Source: Candidatus Saccharimonadota bacterium (GTDB taxonomy: Bacteria > Patescibacteriota > Saccharimonadia > Saccharimonadales > Saccharimonadaceae). From it: a stretch of 64,000 bases of DNA. Every line of letters begins with the position of its first letter. Within the stretch, counting starts at the first letter, position 1. The notes beneath the pieces are model-generated. The model was given only the letters and a program-made list of their open reading frames with translations, was not told where the DNA came from and did not search any database. Shown here piece by piece: positions 8,328 to 36,532 of this stretch. The stretch spans positions 1 to 64,000 of the forward strand of contig JAFUBT010000009.1 of the NCBI GenBank assembly GCA_017460065.1, written 5' to 3'. The position numbers were made by a program, and so were the translations under genes.

Positions 8328-10262
8328 TTAAAGGAGCGAGATAGGGTCGAGTTCGTAATGGAGTTGCGGACTAGGCGGGATGGCGTCGAAGAGGGTAAGG
8401 AGCTGACGACGCGACTTAGCTTTCACGATAATTTCCCAAGTATAGCCAGTATGACTGCGTTCGTGGAAAGCGGGCATGGGTGGCGTAACGGATATAGCGC
8501 GGGAGTCTTGATCCTTGATAAAATGAATAATTTTTTTATGCAATTTGCGGGAGTTTTGGACGGCGGTCGATTCGGTTTTGTAGGTCAAGGAAAGTTTGAG
8601 CAAAAAACTGTAGGGGGGTAGACCGGCTTTGTTGCGCTTCTGCAATAAATATTTATAAAAGTTGGCGTAGTCGGCTGCTAGGGCATAGTTAATTATGGGG
8701 TGGTCGGGCTGATAGGTCTGAACAATAATTTGGCTGTCTTGATGACCACGTTTGGCGCGGCCGATCACTTGGGTGAGTAATTGGAATGTTCGTTCTTCCG
8801 ACGAAAAGTCTGGCAGGGCGAGTTGAGCGTCTGCTTGGACGATGCCGAGCGTGCTGAGGTGCGGGAAATCAAAACCTTTGGCAATCATTTGGGTGCCGAT
8901 GATGATATCGATTTTGCCGGCGTGCACTTGGTGATATAGCTTGTCGAGTCGCTGGTCGGAGTCGGTGTCGGCGTCAAAACGGGCAATACGGGCGTTGGGG
9001 AAGAGTTTAGTAAGTTCATGCTCGAGATATTTGGTGCCAAAACCTTTGTGATGAATGCTGGGATTGGCGCAGTCCGGACAGGCGGTAGCAACAGATTCGT
9101 GATGGCCGCAATTGTGGCAGCGCATTTGGTAGTTGTCGACATGCAGGACGAGCGGCAGGAAACAATTCGGACATAAAGCTTGCCAGCCGCAGTGGTCGCA
9201 GATTGTGAGTGGGGCGGTACCACGGCGATTATGGAAAATCATAGTCTGAGTATGACTTGTTAGCGAATGCTTAATGGCGTCGAGCAGCTGGTTGCTTAAG
9301 AGTCGATTGCGGGCAAAATTAGCGTGGTTCTTAGAGTCGACGATGAGCGAATTGCTGGTCTTGTGGGCGGGCAGGGCGAGTTGGTTGAGTTCGATAATTG
9401 CATTGTGACGTTGGCAGAGGTAATAATCGGCAACAAGGGGGGTGGCGGAGCCTAAAATGGTTTTAGCGAGTGTGGAGGCGAGTCGCAGAGCAGAATATTT
9501 GGGGTTCTGATCTTGCTGATAGGCGGGCTCATGGGCCTCGTCAATGATAACAAGTCCGAGTTGCCGAACGGGCATAAAAAGCGCCGAGCGGGGGCCAATA
9601 ATTATTTGAGGCTGGTCAGCTAGAAGGGCGCGTTGCCAGTTTTGGTGGCGAATAGATTCGCTTTGACCAGAATGGACGAGCAGAATTTGGTCAAAATGGG
9701 CGCGAAAATTGCGTACGATTTGCGAGGTAAGGGCGATTTCGGGTACGAGAATAATGACGGATTTTCCCTGTCGGAGTTGCTGCTTGGCGAGCTCGATATA
9801 GATATTAGTCTTGCCGCTGCCGGTAATGCCGTGCAGCAAGATGGTATTGGCGGTGCTGTGGTTGATGGCAGTGATGGCGCGGCGTTGTGCTTGGTTGAGA
9901 GGGTTATCTTGTGCCGCTGGCACGCTGGGAAGTTGCTCACTACTAGCGCGGCGTTGTTTAGTGATGCCGCGCGGTAAGATTGCTTGAACGACACTGGACA
10001 TTGGACAGCGATAATAATCGGCGAGCCACAAGAGGGCTTTTTGCAGATGTTTCGGGAGGGGGGTTTGGTAAATGGCGCGCAGGATAGCTTTGGTGGCGAA
10101 GTTTGGTTGAGGGCAGCGCTTGATGACAACACCGACAGTAACTTGTTTGCCGAAGGGTATTTCGACGATTTGACCAGGTCGAAATTGGTCGGCAGATTCG
10201 TAGGTGAGAAGACTTTCGTGGCGATTGAAGGTTTTGGCGGGGGCGACCAGATAGTAGTACAT
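8328..10262 (-). CDS. priA: Primosomal protein N' (replication restart helicase)
   Basis: 644 residues. PriA restarts stalled forks and loads the replicative helicase. An N-terminal 3'-DNA-binding domain begins MYYYLVAPAKTF. The helicase core has Walker A HGITGSGKT and the Walker B box DEAH. A zinc module with CDHC, CPNC, CHNC and CPDC pairs sits in the second helicase lobe, followed by GTQMIAKGFDFP and the QVIGRAKRG motif. The box TAAGAT lies 6 nt before the ATG, predicting a leaderless priA-def-fmt transcript. Confidence 0.95.
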   Translation of the reverse strand: MYYYLVAPAKTFNRHESLLTYESADQFRPGQIVEIPFGKQVTVGVVIKRCPQPNFATKAILRAIYQTPLPKHLQKALLWLADYYRCPMSSVVQAILPRGITKQRRASSEQLPSVPAAQDNPLNQAQRRAITAINHSTANTILLHGITGSGKTNIYIELAKQQLRQGKSVIILVPEIALTSQIVRNFRAHFDQILLVHSGQSESIRHQNWQRALLADQPQIIIGPRSALFMPVRQLGLVIIDEAHEPAYQQDQNPKYSALRLASTLAKTILGSATPLVADYYLCQRHNAIIELNQLALPAHKTSNSLIVDSKNHANFARNRLLSNQLLDAIKHSLTSHTQTMIFHNRRGTAPLTICDHCGWQALCPNCFLPLVLHVDNYQMRCHNCGHHESVATACPDCANPSIHHKGFGTKYLEHELTKLFPNARIARFDADTDSDQRLDKLYHQVHAGKIDIIIGTQMIAKGFDFPHLSTLGIVQADAQLALPDFSSEERTFQLLTQVIGRAKRGHQDSQIIVQTYQPDHPIINYALAADYANFYKYLLQKRNKAGLPPYSFLLKLSLTYKTESTAVQNSRKLHKKIIHFIKDQDSRAISVTPPMPAFHERSHTGYTWEIIVKAKSRRQLLTLFDAIPPSPQLHYELDPISLL

Positions 10263-10268
10263 AGGTAT

Positions 10269-10274
10269 ATCTTA
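10269..10274 (-). promoter_or_regulatory. Leaderless promoter of priA
   Basis: On the minus strand TGc-TAAGAT ends 6 nt before the ATG at 10262. Confidence 0.55.
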
Positions 10275-14034: not shown

Positions 14035-14040
14035 ATGCTT

Positions 14041-15273
14041 ATGGAAGAAAAAACTCGCTTTGTGGTGGGCATAGATATTGGAACTAATTTTGTACGCGCA
14101 GCGATTGGTGAGATGACGCATGATGGTATCCGAGTGGTTGGCTATGGGGAGGCGCCATCGGATGGGGTGCGCCGGGGGATTATTAATGATATTAGCGCAC
14201 CATGCGCGGCGATTGACCACGCCTTGGCAGCGGCTGAGAAGATGAGTGGGCTGCAGGTGTCGGATGCAGCAGTGAGCATCAACGGAGTCAACACAACTAG
14301 CACGAAAGTTGATGGAATGATTGCGGTTGGCGTGGCTGATCACGAGATAGACGAGGAAGACTTGATTCGGATTATTGAAACCTCAGTAGCGGGCAAGGTA
14401 CCGGAGACGCGGCAGATTCTGAAAAATATGCCCTACGAGTATATCCTTGATGGGCAAGGCGGGATTCGTGAGCCGATTGGCATGAAGGGCGCGCGTCTTG
14501 AAATGCGAGCAAATGTCATCTCGACGATGAAATTAGACTTCGACAACGTTGTGAAAGCCTGTGCGACGGCAAATCTGGTGCCATCAGTCATTGAGCCGTC
14601 AGTTATTGCGGCGTCGCGAGCGGTTTTGACGGGACAGCAGAAAGAAAACGGTGTAGCGGTGATTGATATGGGTGGCGCTACGACGAGTATTGCGATTTAC
14701 GATGAAGGCGAGTTGCAGTATGTTGGTGTTTGCCCCTACGGTAGCAATGACATTACGAATGATCTAGCAGCTTATTTGAAGACCGTGCCAGATGTAGCTG
14801 AAGAAATTAAGCTGCGCTTTGCGTCTTGCCAATTTGGTGAAAATAGCAAGGACGTAAAGATTAAGCGGGGTCGGGATGAGCTGAACTTTTCGCGACAGGA
14901 TGTCGATGAAGTGATTGAGTCGCGGCTGGAAGAGATTTTCGAAATGATGCGTAAGCATCTGGTACATGCGGGCTATGACCGACGTTTGCCGGAGGGAATT
15001 ATCTTGACTGGTGGTGGCGCCAAGCTGAAAGATATTGATAAATATGTCCGCACGCAGATGGAGCTGGCGGTGCGAATCGGTGTGCCAGAGCGGATTTCTG
15101 GGGTGAGCGAAGATGTCAAGAAGCCAGAGTTCGCAACGGTGATTGGCCTAATGTTTGCTGATAATGAGGCGGGTTTGCGGGATGAATTCAGCAATAATGC
15201 CAAAATTTCTAAAAAGAAGCAGGCCAAGAAGAGCGGTGGTGCAGTAGCACGTTTCTTTAAGCTGTTCAAATAA
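14041..15273 (+). CDS. ftsA: Cell division protein FtsA
   Basis: 410 residues of the actin fold. It tethers FtsZ to the membrane. GIDIGTNFVRAAIG is the phosphate 1 loop, GVAVIDMGGATTSIAIY the phosphate 2 loop and ILTGGGAKL the adenosine motif. The end GGAVARFFKLFK is an amphipathic membrane-targeting helix. ATG 14041 is preferred over ATG 14035 because the -10 box then lies exactly 6 nt away and no ribosome site exists for either. ftsZ follows. Confidence 0.95.
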   Translation: MEEKTRFVVGIDIGTNFVRAAIGEMTHDGIRVVGYGEAPSDGVRRGIINDISAPCAAIDHALAAAEKMSGLQVSDAAVSINGVNTTSTKVDGMIAVGVADHEIDEEDLIRIIETSVAGKVPETRQILKNMPYEYILDGQGGIREPIGMKGARLEMRANVISTMKLDFDNVVKACATANLVPSVIEPSVIAASRAVLTGQQKENGVAVIDMGGATTSIAIYDEGELQYVGVCPYGSNDITNDLAAYLKTVPDVAEEIKLRFASCQFGENSKDVKIKRGRDELNFSRQDVDEVIESRLEEIFEMMRKHLVHAGYDRRLPEGIILTGGGAKLKDIDKYVRTQMELAVRIGVPERISGVSEDVKKPEFATVIGLMFADNEAGLRDEFSNNAKISKKKQAKKSGGAVARFFKLFK

Positions 15274-15349: not shown

Positions 15350-16573
15350 ATGCCCGAAATCAAGCCTAGCGAAGTAGAGAGTACAGCTAGTATTAAAGTA
15401 ATTGGGGTTGGTGGTGCCGGTGGATCGGCCGTGAATCGCATGCGCGAGGCTGGTTTAGTGGGCGTAGAGTTTATTGCAATGAATACGGATGCGCAAGCTC
15501 TGCATAGTTCAAAGGCAGACCGCAAAGTTTACCTAGGCAAAGACACTACGAATGGCTTGGGCGCTGGCGCAGATCCAACGATTGGCGAGAAAGCCGCTGA
15601 AGAGAGCCGCGATGAGATAAAGAATGCCCTAGAAGGTGCGGATATGGCCTTTGTAACCTTTGGTGCCGGTGGCGGGACCGGTTCGGGCGCGGGTTACATT
15701 GTGGCTGAAGAGGCGCGTAAGCAAGATATACTAACGGTTGGCGTAGTAACAAAACCTTTTACTTTTGAGGGCGCCAAACGCAAAGCGAACGCCGATTGGG
15801 CAATTGATCATTTTGCGCGCAATGTGGACGCGTTGATTACAATCCCAAATGATCGTTTGTTGCAAACGATTGATTCGCGAACGCCGCTCGTTGAGACCTT
15901 TAAGATTGCAGATGACGTGTTGCGCCAAGGTGTGCAGGGGATATCTGAATTGATTACCGACGAAAATGCCATGATTAATCTGGACTTTGCCGACGTGAAG
16001 ACCATTATGAAAGATGCTGGGTCGGCTTTGATGGGCATTGGGCGTGCTTCGGGCGAAAATCGGGCAACGATTGCCGCTCAGCAGGCAATTGAATCGCCGC
16101 TGATTGAGGTGTCGATTGACGGTGCGCGCGGTGTATTGTTCTCGGTGACCGGTGGCTACGACGTGACGATGGCTGAGATGGAAGAAGCAGCTGCGCTGAT
16201 TACGGCTAGCGTCAGTCCTGATGCAAATATCATTTGGGGTGCCAGCATCCGCCCAGAACTGGAAGATGAGATTATCGTCACGGTCGTGGCGACGGGTTTT
16301 GACTCGGAATATTACCGCGATGATCCGCGGGCAAAGGAAGTATTCGAGAAAGAAACCGCGAAGCAGACAGAGGAAGCACCTGAGGCAACGACGGGCGAAG
16401 CTACGAATGGTCGCGATACGGCTGCTGCGGAAGCGATGCAGTCTGAGAGTAAGCCGGCAGATTTTGCTGATGCGACCACGACTAATATGTGGGACTCGAT
16501 TCGGACGGATAGCGTGAGCGAAGACAACGATATTCCGGCAATTTTGCGCCGACGCAAGAAGAACAAAAACTAG
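15350..16573 (+). CDS. ftsZ: Cell division GTPase FtsZ
   Basis: 407 residues. It forms the division ring. [13 protein letters not shown] begins the GTPase domain and [12 protein letters not shown] is the tubulin signature. A spacer of about 50 residues leads to [16 protein letters not shown], the conserved C-terminal peptide that binds FtsA. GAGGAG lies 6 nt before the ATG, and the 76-nt gap has TATTAT/TAGAAT-like boxes, so ftsZ can be transcribed on its own. Confidence 0.97.
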
Positions 16574-16587
16574 AGAGGACAACTCAC

Positions 16588-17052
16588 ATGAGTGGCTTGA
16601 AAATTGGTGAAAGTAAAGTAATCGAAAGCCGCGAAACGCAAGACGGGACGATGATTCGTCGCCGTCGCGTTTCTCTGGACGGAAAATACCGCTTTACGAC
16701 TTACGAGCGGATTGAGCGTCCCGGCATGATGGTGCGCAAACGTAGTGGTAGCAAAGAGGCCTTTGACCGCGAAAAGTTGGCCAACGCCGTGCGTAATAGC
16801 GTGGGCAAGTATTTTGAAAGTGATTTGGATGTGCAGAATGTGGTTTCGAAGGTAGAGGACGCAATTTACGCACTTGGTAAAGACGAGATCCAGTCAAAAG
16901 TGATTGGCGAGAAGATTTTGGAGGTGCTATCGGAGACGAACGATATGGCCTATGTACGTTTCGTCAGTGTGTTTCGAGAATTCAAGACGCTTGATGAGTT
17001 AGAGCAAAGTATTGCTGAACAGCGGGCGCGAATGTTGGCGCGGAAAAAATAA
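16588..17052 (+). CDS. nrdR: NrdR-type regulator lacking zinc ligands
   Basis: 154 residues aligning end to end with NrdR, repressor of ribonucleotide reductase genes. SKVIESRETQDGTMIRRRR and RFTTYERIE match the zinc-ribbon domain. The ATP-cone (about 48-140) is intact, with VRKRSGSKEAFDREKLANAV and NDMAYVRFVSVFREF. All four zinc cysteines are gone: the start reads MSGLKIGESK where MKCPFCG is expected, and VSLDGKYRF replaces the second CxxC. The basic DNA-contacting stretch is kept. It follows ftsZ by 14 nt with a ribosome site. Confidence 0.85.
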   Translation: MSGLKIGESKVIESRETQDGTMIRRRRVSLDGKYRFTTYERIERPGMMVRKRSGSKEAFDREKLANAVRNSVGKYFESDLDVQNVVSKVEDAIYALGKDEIQSKVIGEKILEVLSETNDMAYVRFVSVFREFKTLDELEQSIAEQRARMLARKK

Positions 17053-17065
17053 GGAGAGATTAACG

Positions 17066-17332
17066 ATGCGGGTGGTAATTATTTGGCGAGAAAATGCAGA
17101 TTATTCGCGAGCAGTGACGGAATGGTTGCGCGATATCGAGCGGCGAGTAGGACGACAGCCGGAAAGCCTCAGCCCAGACGAGCCGAGTGGCGAAAGTTTG
17201 GCGCGGGCTTATGACGTAGTAGAGTACCCATCGATCCTGGCCTTTAGCGACGATGGTAAATTGCTGCAAATGTGGCGCGGGCAAATGTTACCAAAAATTG
17301 ATGACGTGGCGTATTATTTGTTGGAAGCCTAG
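17066..17332 (+). CDS. Thioredoxin-fold protein without active cysteines
   Basis: 88 residues from ATG 17066, with AAGGAGAGA upstream. The order MRVVIIWRENADYS, helix, then YDVVEYPSILAFSDDGKLL fits a thioredoxin or glutaredoxin fold with the cis-proline in YPS. The protein has no cysteine at all, so it cannot act as a redox enzyme and may be a binding module. It follows nrdR by 13 nt and is probably the last gene of the ftsZ-nrdR unit. Function unknown. Confidence 0.6.
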   Translation: MRVVIIWRENADYSRAVTEWLRDIERRVGRQPESLSPDEPSGESLARAYDVVEYPSILAFSDDGKLLQMWRGQMLPKIDDVAYYLLEA

Positions 17333-17650: not shown

Positions 17651-17668
17651 CAGAAAGGAGCTGTGGGC

Positions 17669-20560
17669 ATGAAATATAAATATGGTGTACGACGTCGAGC
17701 GAGCGAGTACGAAAAAGCATTGATTGAATACTGGAAGAAGCATCAGACATTTGAAAAGTCGGTGGCGGAGCGATCGGTAGACGACGCTTACGTGTTTTAT
17801 GATGGCCCACCATTTATTACGGGTAATCCGCATCATGGCACTTTGCTGTCTTCGATCGTGAAGGATGCAGTGCCGCGTTTTTGGACGATGCGCGGCAAGC
17901 GGGTTGAACGCCGTTGGGGGTGGGACTGTCACGGTCTACCGGCGGAGAATTTCGTCGAAAAGCAATTAGGCATCACGGATAGGCGCGAAATTGGCACAAA
18001 GTGGCCACTCGAAACTTATATCACGAAGGCGCGCGAATCAATGGTGGCAAATTCGGAGACCTGGGAGTCGACGATCGATCGGATTGGTCGTTGGGTTGAT
18101 TTTAAGGGCGCATATCGTACGATGGACAAAGATTTTATGGAGTCGGTATGGTGGGCGTTTAAGACTTTGTATGATAAAGGTAAAATTTACGAGGGCGAAA
18201 AGGTCCTGATGTACGACACGAAGTTTGCTACGCCAGTCTCGAAGGCTGAAGTAACGATGGACAATGATGCATATCAGACAGTGACAGACCCGAGTGCCTA
18301 CGTGAAGTTTAAGTTGCAAGACCGCGATGAATATTTACTAGCTTGGACGACGACGCCATGGACTTTGCCGGCTAACTTGATGTTGGCAGTAAATGCGGAT
18401 TTGACCTATGGTCTATATGAGGTGAATGGGGATAAATTAATTGTGGCAACAAAAATGGCGCTAGCGCTGTTTGGTGAGCATGTGGTGGCGCAGAAGAAAT
18501 ATAGTGGTCAAGATTTGGCCGGGTTAGCCTATCGGCCATTATTTGATGCGCAAGACTTGAACGATGCGGCTGAACAGAGTAAAAACTGCTACAAAGTACA
18601 GCTGGCTGACTTCGTGAGCGACGAAGATGGTACGGGTATTGTGCATATTGCGCCGGCTTATGGTGAAGATGACTATGCGCTGGGCAAGCAGGCTGGCGTA
18701 CCGGTGCGACATACGATTGACGATAATGGCTATTACGTCCCGGAATGGGCCGAGAAACTGCATGCAGTGGGCGTGCGCGAGACGGACGAAAATGGTATTG
18801 AAGTTTGGGCGGCGAATAAGTTTATCGCAAAATGCCTAGAAGCGCGTGGCGACATCTGGAAGATAGAGTATATTAAGCATGAATATCCGTTTAATCCACG
18901 TAGTAAGCAACGTATTATGTATCGGGCGTTCCCTAGCTGGTTCTTCGATGTTGAGGGCAGCAAGGATTTGATGCTAGAGAAGAATGAAGACATCAATTGG
19001 TTCCCGGCGCACTTGAAGCACGGGCGTTTCGCCAAGAACATTGAGCAGGCACCAGACTGGAATTTGTCGCGTGATCGCTTCTGGGCGACGGCCATGCCGG
19101 TCTGGAAGGGAGATAAAGGCTCCATCAAGGTGGTGGGCTCCTACGACGAACTTTACGAGTTGTCTGGCGTGCGGTTGGAAGATTATCACCGACCATGGGT
19201 GGATGAGATTGAGTTTGAGATTGACGGCGAGCACTTCAAACGCGTTGATAAGGTTCTGGACTGTTGGTTTGAGTCTGGATCGATGCCATTTGCGCAGCTA
19301 CATTATCCCTTTGAGAATAAACAGAAATTTGAACGAAACTATCCAGCGGATTTTATTGTAGAGTATGTTGGCCAAGTACGGGCTTGGTTTTACTATGTGC
19401 ATGTGGTAAATACAGCTTTGTTCGGCGAATGTGCGTATAAGAATGTGATTACGACTGGGACTTTAGCGGGAAATGATGGACGTAAGATGAGTAAGTCTTT
19501 GGGCAATTATACGGACCCGAATGAACTGATGGATAAATATTCGGCAGACGCTCTGCGTTTCCAGCTGTTGTCGAGTCCGGTGCTGGCGGGGGAGGACTTC
19601 GCCTTAATCGATAAGGACGTTTCCGACACGGCGCGTAAGCTGACGATGATTTGGAATGTCTATGATTTCTTCACGATGTACGCCAGTGTGGATGGCTGGG
19701 AATATGAAGGCAATAAACTGAAAGCGCCAAAGGACTTAGAGAACGAACTTGATAAATGGGTTGTCAGTCGACTGTATCAGCTACGTAATGAAATAACGCA
19801 GAATATGGAAGATTATAATTTGCCGGCGGCTCTGGCGGGAGTGTTGCCGTTTGTGGACGATTTGTCGAACTGGTTTGTGCGACGGAGCCGGCGACGTTTT
19901 TGGAAATCGGAGTCGACGGCCGACAAAAATGAGGCTTACGAGACGTTGCATTTTGTGTTGAGTTATCTGGCTTTGCTATTGGCGCCGTTTACGCCGTTCT
20001 TGGCGGAGGAACTTTGGCAGAATATGATGGGCGGTGAAAGTGTTCACCTGCTGAATTGGCCGGCTGCGGGCAAGGTGGATACGACCGTACTGGAGAGAAT
20101 GGCGAGTTGCCGGGCGATAATCACGGAAGGCCTGGCGCAGCGCATGGTGCGCGATGATGGCTTTGGCCAGATAAAGGTGCGTCAGCCTTTGGCGCAACTA
20201 AGCTATGCGGGCGAGAAACTGGACGGATTCTACGAGCAAATTATTGCTGAAGAGGTAAACGTTAAAAAAGTGGCACACGCAAAAGAATTAGTGCTCGACA
20301 AGCGATTAACGAATGAGTTGCGCGATGAGGGTTTTGTGCGTGAGTTGATTCGTTTTGTACAGGCGGCACGCAAGAAAGCCGGTTTGAACGTAGATGATCG
20401 CATCAAGTTATCGTTGAGCTGCGCGGTGCCAAACGCATATGAGCAGATGCTGAAGGACGAGGTACTGGCCTTGGAATTGGACAGTAGCGCAAACTATGCT
20501 TACGACGAGATTGTAAAGTTGAATGGCGAGAATGTGACGATTTCGCTCGAAAAAGCGTAA
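17669..20560 (+). CDS. ileS: Isoleucyl-tRNA synthetase, eukaryote-like type
   Basis: 963 residues from ATG 17669, 8 nt after AAGGAG. Class I synthetase: the HIGH-type motif is PHHGT at 54-58 and KMSKS is intact in GRKMSKSLGNY. The editing domain lies between WTTTPWTLPAN and the second half of the catalytic core. The DRIGRWVDFKGAYRTMDKDF stretch and the absence of a C-terminal zinc ribbon fit the type 2 (eukaryote-like) IleRS also found in Actinobacteria. Expression should respond to uncharged tRNA-Ile through the T-box leader. Confidence 0.95.
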   Translation: MKYKYGVRRRASEYEKALIEYWKKHQTFEKSVAERSVDDAYVFYDGPPFITGNPHHGTLLSSIVKDAVPRFWTMRGKRVERRWGWDCHGLPAENFVEKQLGITDRREIGTKWPLETYITKARESMVANSETWESTIDRIGRWVDFKGAYRTMDKDFMESVWWAFKTLYDKGKIYEGEKVLMYDTKFATPVSKAEVTMDNDAYQTVTDPSAYVKFKLQDRDEYLLAWTTTPWTLPANLMLAVNADLTYGLYEVNGDKLIVATKMALALFGEHVVAQKKYSGQDLAGLAYRPLFDAQDLNDAAEQSKNCYKVQLADFVSDEDGTGIVHIAPAYGEDDYALGKQAGVPVRHTIDDNGYYVPEWAEKLHAVGVRETDENGIEVWAANKFIAKCLEARGDIWKIEYIKHEYPFNPRSKQRIMYRAFPSWFFDVEGSKDLMLEKNEDINWFPAHLKHGRFAKNIEQAPDWNLSRDRFWATAMPVWKGDKGSIKVVGSYDELYELSGVRLEDYHRPWVDEIEFEIDGEHFKRVDKVLDCWFESGSMPFAQLHYPFENKQKFERNYPADFIVEYVGQVRAWFYYVHVVNTALFGECAYKNVITTGTLAGNDGRKMSKSLGNYTDPNELMDKYSADALRFQLLSSPVLAGEDFALIDKDVSDTARKLTMIWNVYDFFTMYASVDGWEYEGNKLKAPKDLENELDKWVVSRLYQLRNEITQNMEDYNLPAALAGVLPFVDDLSNWFVRRSRRRFWKSESTADKNEAYETLHFVLSYLALLLAPFTPFLAEELWQNMMGGESVHLLNWPAAGKVDTTVLERMASCRAIITEGLAQRMVRDDGFGQIKVRQPLAQLSYAGEKLDGFYEQIIAEEVNVKKVAHAKELVLDKRLTNELRDEGFVRELIRFVQAARKKAGLNVDDRIKLSLSCAVPNAYEQMLKDEVLALELDSSANYAYDEIVKLNGENVTISLEKA

Positions 20561-27046: not shown

Positions 27047-27061
27047 TATACTGGTAAAGAG

Positions 27062-27931
27062 ATGCCAGAACTGCCAGAAGTAGAGACGATTCGACGGGGG
27101 TTAGAGGAGAAAATCTTACATAAACGCGTGATGCGCGTGGTAATTTTGTGCGACAAGAGTTGGCGGGGTTTGGGTAAGGAGCTAGTAGAGGGGCAGCAAA
27201 TTGTGCGTCTGGAAAGACGCGGAAAAGCCTTACTGATGAGGCTAGAAAATAAGCTGTGGATGATGGCGCATTTGCGCATGACGGGGCAGATGGTTTACGT
27301 GGGAGCAGAGCGCTTTGCGGCGGGGCACCCTGATAGCGGCTTTTTGGATGAGATGCCGGGGCGACATACGCGCATTTATTTTGAATTCGACGACGGGACG
27401 CATCTGTATTTTAATGATCAGCGCAAGTTTGGCTTTATTAAGGTACTGGATGAGCTGGGGCTGCAATCGGATACGTTTTTGAGCAGCTTAGCACCCGAGC
27501 CATGGGATATGAGCGAGGATGAGTTTTGGGCGCGGTTACAGCGACACAAAAAGGCCATAATTAAGGCGGTGATTTTGGATCAAAAAATGATTGCTGGGGT
27601 GGGGAATATCTATGCGGACGAGGCCTGTTTTGCGGCGGGGCTCTACCCGGGGACGCGAGTGGCGGCGGTATCGCGCGAAACGGCGGACTTGCTATTGCGG
27701 GGGCTGCGCGAGGTGATGCAGCGTTCAATTGATAGCGGTGGTTCGACTATGAAGGACTATGTGCGAGCGGACGGCACAAAGGGGAGTTATTTAGAAAAAT
27801 TTGCGCAGGTATTCCGGCGCGAGGGGGAATTGTGCCGACGGTGCGGTAACGAGATTCTGAAGACGCGCGTAGCGGGGCGAGGCACGCACTATTGCCCGCA
27901 TTGTCAGCCAAAGGGTAGAAGCGATGCTTAA
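27062..27931 (+). CDS. mutM: Formamidopyrimidine-DNA glycosylase
   Basis: 289 residues. It excises 8-oxoguanine. The start PELPEVETIRRGL gives the catalytic Pro and Glu, HLRMTGQM and NDQRKFGF follow, and the C-terminal zinc finger CRRCG...CPHC is complete. A TATACT box at 27047-27052 lies 9 nt before the ATG, giving a very short leader, although read-through from the proteases is likely. It overlaps the next gene by 8 nt. Confidence 0.95.
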   Translation: MPELPEVETIRRGLEEKILHKRVMRVVILCDKSWRGLGKELVEGQQIVRLERRGKALLMRLENKLWMMAHLRMTGQMVYVGAERFAAGHPDSGFLDEMPGRHTRIYFEFDDGTHLYFNDQRKFGFIKVLDELGLQSDTFLSSLAPEPWDMSEDEFWARLQRHKKAIIKAVILDQKMIAGVGNIYADEACFAAGLYPGTRVAAVSRETADLLLRGLREVMQRSIDSGGSTMKDYVRADGTKGSYLEKFAQVFRREGELCRRCGNEILKTRVAGRGTHYCPHCQPKGRSDA

Positions 27932-34507: not shown

Positions 34508-35192
34508 TCAGCGTGTGCGGGCGATTGTCTTACGACGAACGAACTATGGTGAGGCGGACCGGATTTTGCAACTTCTGACGCCGGAGGGAAAGAAGAGCGT
34601 GATTGCGCGAGGCGTACGCAAAGAAAAGTCGAAGCTAGCTGGTGGCATAGAGTTGTTCTCGTTGTCGGATGTGGTAATACATGAGGGGCGCAGCGAGTTG
34701 GGGCTATTGACTAGCGCGCGCCTGATTGAGCATTATGCGGCCTTAGTGTCAGATATTGATCTGATTGAACGGGCGGGGGTGATGCTAAAAGAGGCAGACC
34801 GACGAGCCGAACAGGTGGATTCGCCGGAGTTTTTTGATTTATTACGACAAGCGTTGCGGGCGATGCAGGCGCACGCAGGGGAGAAAGGCGCATGGCGGGA
34901 GCTGTTGCGAGTATGGTGGGTTTTGAATTTGGCGCGGGTGAGCGGCGAGGAAGCGAATTTGCGCTTTGACAATGCAGGGCGAAAATTGGCGGCGGACAAA
35001 ATGTATGTTTGGGATGCCGAAAGCGTGGCCTTGGCGGAGCAGCCAGCTGGTCAAGTGGGCGCAGATCATATTAAGATGATGCGATTGATGGTGTCGGCGC
35101 CAGTAGAGGTGGTCTTGCGGGTGCGGGGTGCTGACCAATTGGTTGATGAGCTAAGCTATATCGCAAAGTGCATCGAGCGGGCAACCCGTTAA
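34488..35192 (+). CDS. recO: DNA repair protein RecO
   Basis: 234 residues. The N-terminal OB fold carries RAIVLRRTNYGEADRILQLL and KSVIARGVRKEKSKLAGGIE, typical of RecO, followed by an all-helical domain. The usual zinc cysteines are absent. RecO loads RecA with RecR. It starts inside the response regulator gene, so it is in the same operon, but a functional link is not implied. Confidence 0.9.
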   Translation: MVKKLRDQRVRAIVLRRTNYGEADRILQLLTPEGKKSVIARGVRKEKSKLAGGIELFSLSDVVIHEGRSELGLLTSARLIEHYAALVSDIDLIERAGVMLKEADRRAEQVDSPEFFDLLRQALRAMQAHAGEKGAWRELLRVWWVLNLARVSGEEANLRFDNAGRKLAADKMYVWDAESVALAEQPAGQVGADHIKMMRLMVSAPVEVVLRVRGADQLVDELSYIAKCIERATR

Positions 35193-35197
35193 TATGG

Positions 35198-35203
35198 TAT
35201 AAT
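35198..35203 (+). promoter_or_regulatory. Leaderless promoter of glyS
   Basis: TGg-TATAAT ends 6 nt before the ATG at 35210. Confidence 0.65.
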
Positions 35204-35209
35204 TTTGGC

Positions 35210-36532
35210 ATGGTGAAAATGGAAGATATTGTCAGTTTGTGCAAGAGGCGGGGATTTATTTGGCAAGGTAGTGACGTTTACGGTGGTATGGCCGGAACTT
35301 GGGATTTTGGTCCTTTGGGCGTAGCTTTGAAGCGTAAAATGATGGATGCTTGGTGGAAGTATTGGGTAGAAGACCGCGACGACATATATGGCGTAGATGC
35401 AGCGATTTTGATGAATCCACGAACCTGGGTGGCCTCTGGGCACACGGCGACTTTTGCTGATCCGCTGGTTGAATGCGGCAACTGTCACGGGCGGTTTCGC
35501 GCCGACAAGATTGCGGAGGGGATTTCTGAGAGCATCACGACAGAAGAATTTCGAGCCTTGCAGGTAAAATGTCCAACTTGCGGGAAAGTCGACTGGGGGG
35601 AGATTCGGAAATTTAACATGATGTTCCAGACGCACGTGGGGCCGGTAGACGACGATAGCTCAATTACTTATTTGCGACCAGAGACGGCGCAGGGGATTTT
35701 TACGAACTACAAGAACGTAGTGGATACGATTTACCCGGACTTGCCGTTTGGTCTCGCGCAGCAAGGGAAGGCCTTCCGGAATGAAATTTCGCCGCGTGAT
35801 TTCATTTTGCGTGATCGCGAGTGTTCGCAGATGGAGATTGAGTACTTCGTAGCGCCAGACACTTGGGAAGCGGAATTTGAGAAACTCTTGCGGCAGCAGC
35901 ACGAGTTTTTGGGTGATGCGATGGGATTGGATATGGCGCGCGTACATGATCGCGAAGTCGAGGAGTCGGACCGGGCGCATTACTCGAAACGCACCGTAGA
36001 TATTGAATTTGATTATCCCAATGGCCGCGAAGAGTTAATGGGGCTGGCTTATCGTACGGATTTTGATTTGTTGAACATCCAGCGCGAGAGTGGTAAGAAC
36101 ATGGAGTACATCATGAAAGGCGGTGGCGGTCGCTTTGTGCCGCACGTGATTGAGCCGTCGATTGGCGTGGAGCGCTTGTTCTTGGCAATTTTGGCCTCAG
36201 CCTATACCGAAGATAAAGTGAATGGCGAAAAGCGCGTGGTGCTGCGTCTAGCAGAGCATTTGGCGCCTTACCGTTTCTGTGTGTCACCACTCTTGAAAAA
36301 TAAGCCGGAATTAGTGACAAAGGCGCAGGAAGTTTACGCACAGCTCCGGCAGAAATATGGCAATGTAACCTGGGACGATTCGGGAAATATCGGCAAACGC
36401 TACCGCAAGCAAGACGAAATTGGTACACCGAAGTGCGTAGTGGTGGACTTTGACACCATTGAAGACGATACGGTGACGGTGCGCGATCGTGACACGACCG
36501 AACAGCAACGTGTGAAGATTACGGAATTGTAG
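35210..36532 (+). CDS. glyS: Glycyl-tRNA synthetase, dimeric alpha2 type
   Basis: 440 residues from ATG 35210. Class II enzyme of the single-chain alpha2 kind. GSDVYGGMAGTWDFGPLG begins the catalytic domain, CGNC and CPTC form a zinc-binding insert, MFQTHVGP and YLRPETAQGIF are motif 2 region, and EPSIGVERLFLAILASAY is motif 3. The C-terminal anticodon domain ends the protein. A -10 box exactly 6 nt upstream supports the start. uppS follows after 5 nt. Confidence 0.96.
   Translation: MVKMEDIVSLCKRRGFIWQGSDVYGGMAGTWDFGPLGVALKRKMMDAWWKYWVEDRDDIYGVDAAILMNPRTWVASGHTATFADPLVECGNCHGRFRADKIAEGISESITTEEFRALQVKCPTCGKVDWGEIRKFNMMFQTHVGPVDDDSSITYLRPETAQGIFTNYKNVVDTIYPDLPFGLAQQGKAFRNEISPRDFILRDRECSQMEIEYFVAPDTWEAEFEKLLRQQHEFLGDAMGLDMARVHDREVEESDRAHYSKRTVDIEFDYPNGREELMGLAYRTDFDLLNIQRESGKNMEYIMKGGGGRFVPHVIEPSIGVERLFLAILASAYTEDKVNGEKRVVLRLAEHLAPYRFCVSPLLKNKPELVTKAQEVYAQLRQKYGNVTWDDSGNIGKRYRKQDEIGTPKCVVVDFDTIEDDTVTVRDRDTTEQQRVKITEL

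Follow-up and report, generated by a model that had tools for sequence, protein, structure and literature searches.

NrdR is a bacterial regulator that matches the production of DNA building blocks to supply. It represses the genes of ribonucleotide reductase (RNR) and combines a zinc-ribbon with an ATP-cone; the zinc site is taken to be part of its DNA-binding ability. Saccharibacteria are tiny, host-dependent bacteria. The ATP-cone of NrdR senses ATP and dATP, setting the oligomeric state of the protein (PMC9110341, PMC12176259). In S. coelicolor NrdR, paired Zn-ribbons sit on two boxes; arginines contact the DNA backbone, while D15 and R17 lie close to the bases (PMC9110341). In Streptomyces, the zinc region was found to be crucial for NrdR to bind DNA, and E. 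coli NrdR binds better when zinc is added (PMC4898720). A related situation is found in the zinc-independent (C-) ribosomal protein paralogues of mycobacteria and E. coli (bL31B), in which a Cys-free version keeps the job of the protein. The mycobacterial alternative ribosomal proteins are tied to zinc limitation (PMC5912738, PMC7363858). In the open-access literature, we found no paper pairing NrdR with Saccharibacteria or Patescibacteria.

The open reading frame at positions 16588–17052 (forward strand) of the window, by which we mean the whole 64-kb stretch of DNA analysed here, encodes a 154-aa homologue of NrdR along its full length, without a single cysteine in the protein. Apart from the cysteines, homology to the NrdR N-terminal domain is evident in Pfam (PF22811, Zn_ribbon_NrdR, 43.4 bits, cut-off 27.2), and the ATP-cone is matched as well (PF03477, 62.2 bits, cut-off 25.8). 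Solved NrdR structures are matched at E-values of 5e-23 to 9e-20. The score of 110.8 bits against TIGR00244 lies below the curated equivalog threshold of 124.65, which none of the same-genus genomes exceeds. The original prediction of a full-length NrdR that lacks all four zinc ligands is correct.

Major differences from ordinary NrdR are concentrated in the former Zn-ribbon DNA-binding domain (aa 1–46). No CxxC pair is present, and both zinc knuckles are replaced and partly shortened. Alignments place the segment MSGLKIGES (aa 1–9, 16588–16614) at the first knuckle, where MSGLKIGESKV stands for the MxCxxCxxxDTKV of four-Cys relatives and is two residues shorter. The clade consensus of this replacement is approximately IG[DE]S, with I6, G7 and S9 invariant in the Cys-free alignment. 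The second knuckle is replaced by VSLDGKYR (aa 28–35, 16669–16692). Here RRRRVSLDGKYRF stands for RRRRxCxxCxxRF at equal length, with S and G at the two Cys positions. The DG turn of this segment is kept across the clade, and the segment is one residue shorter in many relatives.

The remaining features match those of characterised NrdRs, such as the S. coelicolor (7p37) and E. coli (9fxk) proteins and the TIGR00244 family: full-length homology, the ATP-cone, the RRRR and RFTTYE motifs and the DNA-contact positions. The S. coelicolor contact set of R12, D15, R17, R26–29 and R37 corresponds to K10, E13, R15, R24–R27 and R35. The first three lie in the segment KVIESR (aa 10–15, 16615–16632), in which E13 and R15 are invariant in the Cys-free alignment. 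The RRRR motif (aa 24–27, 16657–16668), which contains the arginines that bind the DNA backbone (PMC9110341), is likewise invariant. The changes at two contact positions are conservative, and E at the D15 position is common to four-Cys relatives across the order. In the ATP-cone (aa 47–134, 16726–16989), the nucleotide-site residues V49, K51, E57 and K63, equivalent to S. coelicolor V48, K50, E56 and K62, are conserved (roles in PMC12176259). In the genus, residue 129, equivalent to S. coelicolor Y128, is F; across the wider Cys-free clade, either F or Y stands there. The Y128A mutant of S. coelicolor NrdR binds two dATP per cone (PMC12176259), and nucleotide preference might differ through the change at residue 129.

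A sequencing error, a wrong start codon or pseudogene decay could in principle produce a zinc-ribbon protein without cysteines. The low TIGR00244 score is the one observation in favour of this explanation, which we regard as hardly conceivable, as a single sequence type recurs in dozens of independent assemblies. NrdR is matched in 35 of the 37 same-genus genomes, and all four ligands are absent from each of the 36 NrdR reading frames read from same-genus loci. These 36 share a near-identical N-terminus of the approximate form IGESKVIESRE.QDGTMIRRRRVSLDGK.RFTTYERIE. A scan of named public genomes of Saccharibacteria from the gut, rumen and environment, a few of them already sampled, yielded 57 loci (L130–L186), none of which encodes a Cys in the first 50 residues. 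A misplaced start codon is ruled out by the open frame of 179 aa, whose codons upstream of the ATG contain no CxxC. Within the genus, pN/pS comes to 0.031 in the N-domain against 0.195 in the ATP-cone; as pS is almost saturated, only the contrast between the two domains is usable. Purifying selection acts more strongly on the Cys-free DNA-binding domain than on the ATP-cone.

No second, canonical NrdR was found in the 652-kb genome, where the copy at 16588–17052 is the only one. G010 carries two copies, both Cys-free. The sole copy at 16588–17052 differs from the C- ribosomal paralogues, which are extra copies, and other zinc-type proteins in the window keep their cysteines. Genome-wide zinc avoidance is not supported, as CxxC pairs are retained by the PriA-like (8331–10271, reverse strand), Fpg-like (27047–27928, forward) and aminoacyl-tRNA synthetase-like (35150–36529, forward) proteins of the window. 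The NrdD of the same genome also keeps its CGF...CPSCG motif. A search for the Top1 zinc ribbon in this genome gave no match and is uninformative. In one member of the genus, G026 (96% complete), no NrdR was found, although good NrdR boxes remain at both its nrdD promoter and its small glycyl-radical gene; the missing NrdR is probably an assembly gap.

The distribution of the loss was surveyed with a Cys-free profile in 393 genomes of the order Saccharimonadales. E-values range from about 1e-52 to 1e-80 in the family of the window, with the exception of G417, and are about 1e-51 or weaker in other families. To read Cys status directly, 29 N-termini at the boundary were inspected: 11 are four-Cys sequences from within the family (L250–L259, L261), 12 are Cys-free and 6 are four-Cys sequences from other families. 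Given the four-Cys copies within the family, the profile score alone is insufficient proof of Cys status, and most family NrdRs with higher scores were classed by score rather than read singly. The Cys-free g29 lineage differs in its first segment, which reads DETKV or EETKV. No partial, two-Cys NrdR occurs among the 140 sequences classified. Both CxxC pairs are kept in 20 of 20 other Patescibacteria lineages. Among the N-termini read, the comparison suggested in the original prediction places the loss in one clade. That prediction had also allowed that intact relatives might expose this copy as a sequencing or decay artefact; the intact ones lie outside the clade, and every clade copy examined has lost all four cysteines.

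We computed a tree from the part of the protein downstream of the knuckles, the ATP-cone, using 79 Cys-free and 55 four-Cys rows. It contains one change of state: the Cys-free rows form one side of a branch that lies among four-Cys rows of the same family. The SH-aLRT value of 80 on this branch is modest support, coming from few columns in a tree with many unresolved forks. Cysteine loss in a single event, in an ancestor inside one Saccharimonadales family, appears the most likely origin from these sequences.

Several other observations were made in the survey. No NrdR was found in G417 (same family, genus g62), where the sole match (E 9.7e-7, profile positions 45–134) lies in a 751-aa open frame and is presumably the ATP-cone of an RNR; NrdR may truly have been lost there. 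Two Nomurabacteria-labelled contigs (L137, JAITKW010000064; L140, JAIRRY010000003) carry a Cys-free nrdR in the order ftsA-ftsZ-nrdR and are probably mislabelled bins of this Saccharibacteria family. Most genomes from the order's other families also encode a divergent second NrdR-like protein (L058–L071). This protein contains two CxxC (MVCxYCG...VxNSR...WRRRxCxxC...FTTxE), its remainder resembles an ATP-cone only weakly, and it has no match in the genus of the window.

An AlphaFold2 model built with 22 aligned Cys-free sequences has a mean pLDDT of 87.6 and a pTM of 0.67. As the original prediction had proposed to check, the predicted structure has an NrdR fold, with three N-terminal strands (residues 9–16, 22–29 and 35–41; pLDDT 71–89 for this part) and the ATP-cone. 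The best structural matches of the model are NrdR chains over their full length (Z 13.2–15.2). The overall rmsd is high (6–10 Å), presumably reflecting a different angle between the domains. Most of the structural comparison consists of ATP-cone matches, and the N-domain is tested by only a few NrdR rows. The model is compatible with an NrdR fold for the Cys-free protein; AlphaFold2 tends to give the family fold with or without ligands, and probably would do so for a destabilised protein too, so the model speaks for compatibility and is no proof of metal-free stability.

It is conceivable that the N-domain has swapped its ligands and binds a metal through non-cysteine side chains, for example the acidic residues D/E8, D19 and D31. 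These vary little or not at all across the Cys-free clade, and D/E8 and D31 sit in the two knuckle-replacing segments. However, no His or Cys is conserved, and the position before R35 is variously H, Y, N, K, F or R. Shortening of the knuckles also speaks against a metal site, as does the DETKV or EETKV that stands in place of the first segment in g29. We therefore consider a swapped metal site improbable and favour an N-domain that folds without zinc.

The RNR genes of these bacteria have changed as well. In four-Cys relatives, nrdR lies between ftsZ and the class II RNR gene nrdJ. In the genus of the window, nrdJ is absent except in G002 and G013, and a class III nrdD is found elsewhere in the genome; in nearly all members of this genus (g1), the ancestral class II gene beside nrdR has been replaced as RNR by the class III gene. 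Three relatives (G072, G077, G084) have matches to both nrdJ and nrdD. Only one of 41 genomes, from outside the genus, gave a match to a class I small subunit. The switch to a class III RNR is ruled out as the cause of the Cys loss by G002, G013 and 12 other genomes, in which the Cys-free NrdR occurs together with a class II nrdJ.

Conserved palindromes of the NrdR-box type are located upstream of nrdD. In nearly all genus loci read, a proximal pair is spaced 33 bp start to start, and in most genus loci a further box lies about 75 bp upstream of this pair. The candidate boxes of the own-genome nrdD lie at C7:126553, 126630 and 126663; a test for boxes before nrd genes in this genome had been proposed in the original prediction. 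Here the first proximal box fills the 17 bases between the hexamers TTGCAA and TACCAT, an arrangement that would suit repression by blocking RNA polymerase. A consensus promoter scan of the same genome did not pick the nrdD promoter with these hexamers.

We trained a box matrix on the genus nrdD promoters and applied it to promoters that played no part in training. These were the two class II promoters of the genus, 24 promoters from other Cys-free genomes (12 of class II, 12 of class III) and, from four-Cys relatives, those of nrdR-nrdJ. Each of the 26 Cys-free RNR promoters in this test group had a pair score between 14 and 48, whereas 302 other sequence windows of the loci reached 4.6 at most. 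RNR promoters from many genera carry boxes that are almost perfect palindromes. In some promoters, including L219, L223, L227 and L233, the best pair contains only one strong box; more boxes lie nearby in several. Box pairs in the Cys-free lineage are mostly 32–33 bp apart before RNR genes. An altered box spacing as a result of the Cys loss was rejected, as the four-Cys relatives also have 32–34 bp start to start. The corresponding gap between boxes is 16–17 bp, inside the range of 15–17 bp that allowed repression in an E. coli reporter (PMC12051234). An isolated NrdR-box-like 16-mer, ACGACATATATGGCGT, at positions 35379–35394 of the window lies inside the aminoacyl-tRNA synthetase-like coding region and is probably a chance occurrence.

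The target sites bear on whether the protein has lost DNA binding and now performs only nucleotide sensing and oligomerisation, with the boxes being relics or used by something else. All four zinc ligands are gone, and the integrity of the zinc region is reported to matter (PMC4898720). Against such a loss, constraint on the protein is strongest in the N-domain, whose contact positions are conserved. Near-perfect palindromic boxes persist at RNR promoters in many genera, with no other NrdR found in the genome to use them. A loss of DNA binding thus seems very unlikely. The original prediction had offered two alternatives, a fold held another way or nucleotide sensing only; the near-invariant domain, the contact positions and the RNR boxes favour the former and speak against the latter.

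The gene order around nrdR is largely ancestral. ftsA (14035–15273, forward; named from sequence and gene order) is followed by ftsZ (15350–16573, forward), the ancestral neighbour, and the ATG of nrdR lies 15 bases past the ftsZ stop codon. Downstream of nrdR lies a 106-codon open reading frame (17012–17332, forward; real start probably ATG 17066), which is thioredoxin-like by eye only and has no Pfam match. The conserved cluster ends with the isoleucyl-tRNA synthetase gene ileS (17663–20560, forward; named from sequence). Many four-Cys relatives across Saccharimonadales have the order ftsA-ftsZ-nrdR-nrdJ-(small ORF)-ileS. In Cys-free loci, nrdJ is gone from between nrdR and the small ORF. 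The order ftsA-ftsZ-nrdR(-nrdJ) is ancestral, so that the adjacency of nrdR and ftsZ was inherited and left behind by the loss of nrdJ.

The place of nrdR right after ftsZ had led to the proposal of a possible new link between dNTP state and cell division, in which the Cys-free NrdR would have acquired a division role with ftsZ. The two genes probably share one transcript, with no promoter-like site found between them. The proposal is not supported: four-Cys relatives have the same neighbour, and the boxes are found at RNR genes. In the genus loci tested, no box lies near either ftsZ or nrdR, and matrix scores there remain within background. We judge a division role to be highly implausible. 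The neighbourhood is that of the four-Cys Saccharibacteria nrdR, and box pairs precede the RNR genes here too; unlike in those relatives, however, nrdR is not beside an RNR gene, and the boxes found before the ancestral nrdR-nrdJ operon are absent at the genus nrdR locus. Four-Cys family members with nrdR apart from nrdJ (group E2) are also without boxes at this site, indicating that box loss is not tied to Cys loss.

A pattern search in ten genomes found few strong box pairs besides those of nrdD and nrdJ, and a recurrent second pair that precedes a small glycyl-radical gene. In most class III genomes studied here, this gene encodes a protein of about 145–155 aa that repeats the NrdD segment FERLRRITGYLVGTLxRWNDxKKAEE and matches positions 531–562 of PF13597 (30.6 bits). 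In the own genome it lies on the reverse strand of contig C8 (G000:C8, L210:1861–2295), immediately preceded by a box pair with 33-bp spacing (C8:78334/78367); the protein is also present in relatives (L211–L214, L293–L296, L298–L300). GrcA (YfiD) is a comparable case: this small protein repeats the glycyl-radical segment found at the C-terminus of a large enzyme of the same type. While GrcA serves pyruvate formate-lyase, the segment here is that of a class III RNR, and the gene carries NrdR boxes. The YfiD study names spare parts of pyruvate formate-lyase as the only validated ones and allows that others may exist (PMC8683613).

In four relatives (G067, G068, G069, G071; truncated NrdD at L240, L241, L242, L297), NrdD stops just before the glycyl-radical segment, and short tails, dissimilar and with Cys, follow in its place, a difference from the GrcA case. 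The small protein is intact in all four and has its own box-like pair upstream. As NrdD ends before the segment, the radical glycine would need to be supplied in trans. The simplest reading of these sequences is that the small protein is a YfiD-like spare part for NrdD and, in some species, the sole carrier of the radical glycine; the four relatives could also be said to have a split class III RNR.

Judged by descent and target sites, the protein encoded at 16588–17052 is an NrdR, and very probably it works like one. It falls outside the definition of NrdR by a two-CxxC Zn-ribbon and is best named a Cys-free variant rather than an ordinary NrdR. Of the features in the published mechanism of NrdR, the protein keeps all but the zinc site, and on this basis we infer zinc-free folding and DNA binding. 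In the mechanism we propose, both CxxC knuckles would have been swapped in one ancestral event for the IG[DE]S segment and a tight D-G turn, which would form tight turns closing the strand ends at the places of the knuckles. The three-stranded N-domain would be held by ordinary packing, independently of zinc. Adenine nucleotides would still be sensed via the ATP-cone, and paired N-domains would still form and bind the same paired 16-bp boxes before RNR operons. The targets in the own genome would be the class III nrdD operon and the small gene for the separate glycyl-radical segment, both repressed when dATP is high.

We consider it likely that the protein is an orthologous, zinc-independent NrdR that still binds its boxes and represses RNR genes. 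Orthology, the clade-wide loss with its single origin on the tree, purifying selection, the contact positions and the box pairs at RNR promoters are observed, while the metal-free state, the box binding and the direction of regulation are the parts that we infer. For the larger picture, we lean towards a lineage whose sole NrdR has a metal-free, still sequence-specific N-domain and whose regulon, in these anaerobes, is a class III RNR with a separately encoded, trans-supplied glycyl-radical segment, in some members the only copy.

A sole NrdR that lacks the four ligands and retains its target sites would constitute a natural experiment for the metal being dispensable, and four-Cys members of the same family are near enough to serve as a reference in studies of structure and binding. 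Annotation cut-offs score the whole Cys-free group too low. The small-protein finding may be of more weight than the NrdR result: if confirmed, an NrdR-linked glycyl-radical gene would represent a new RNR architecture.
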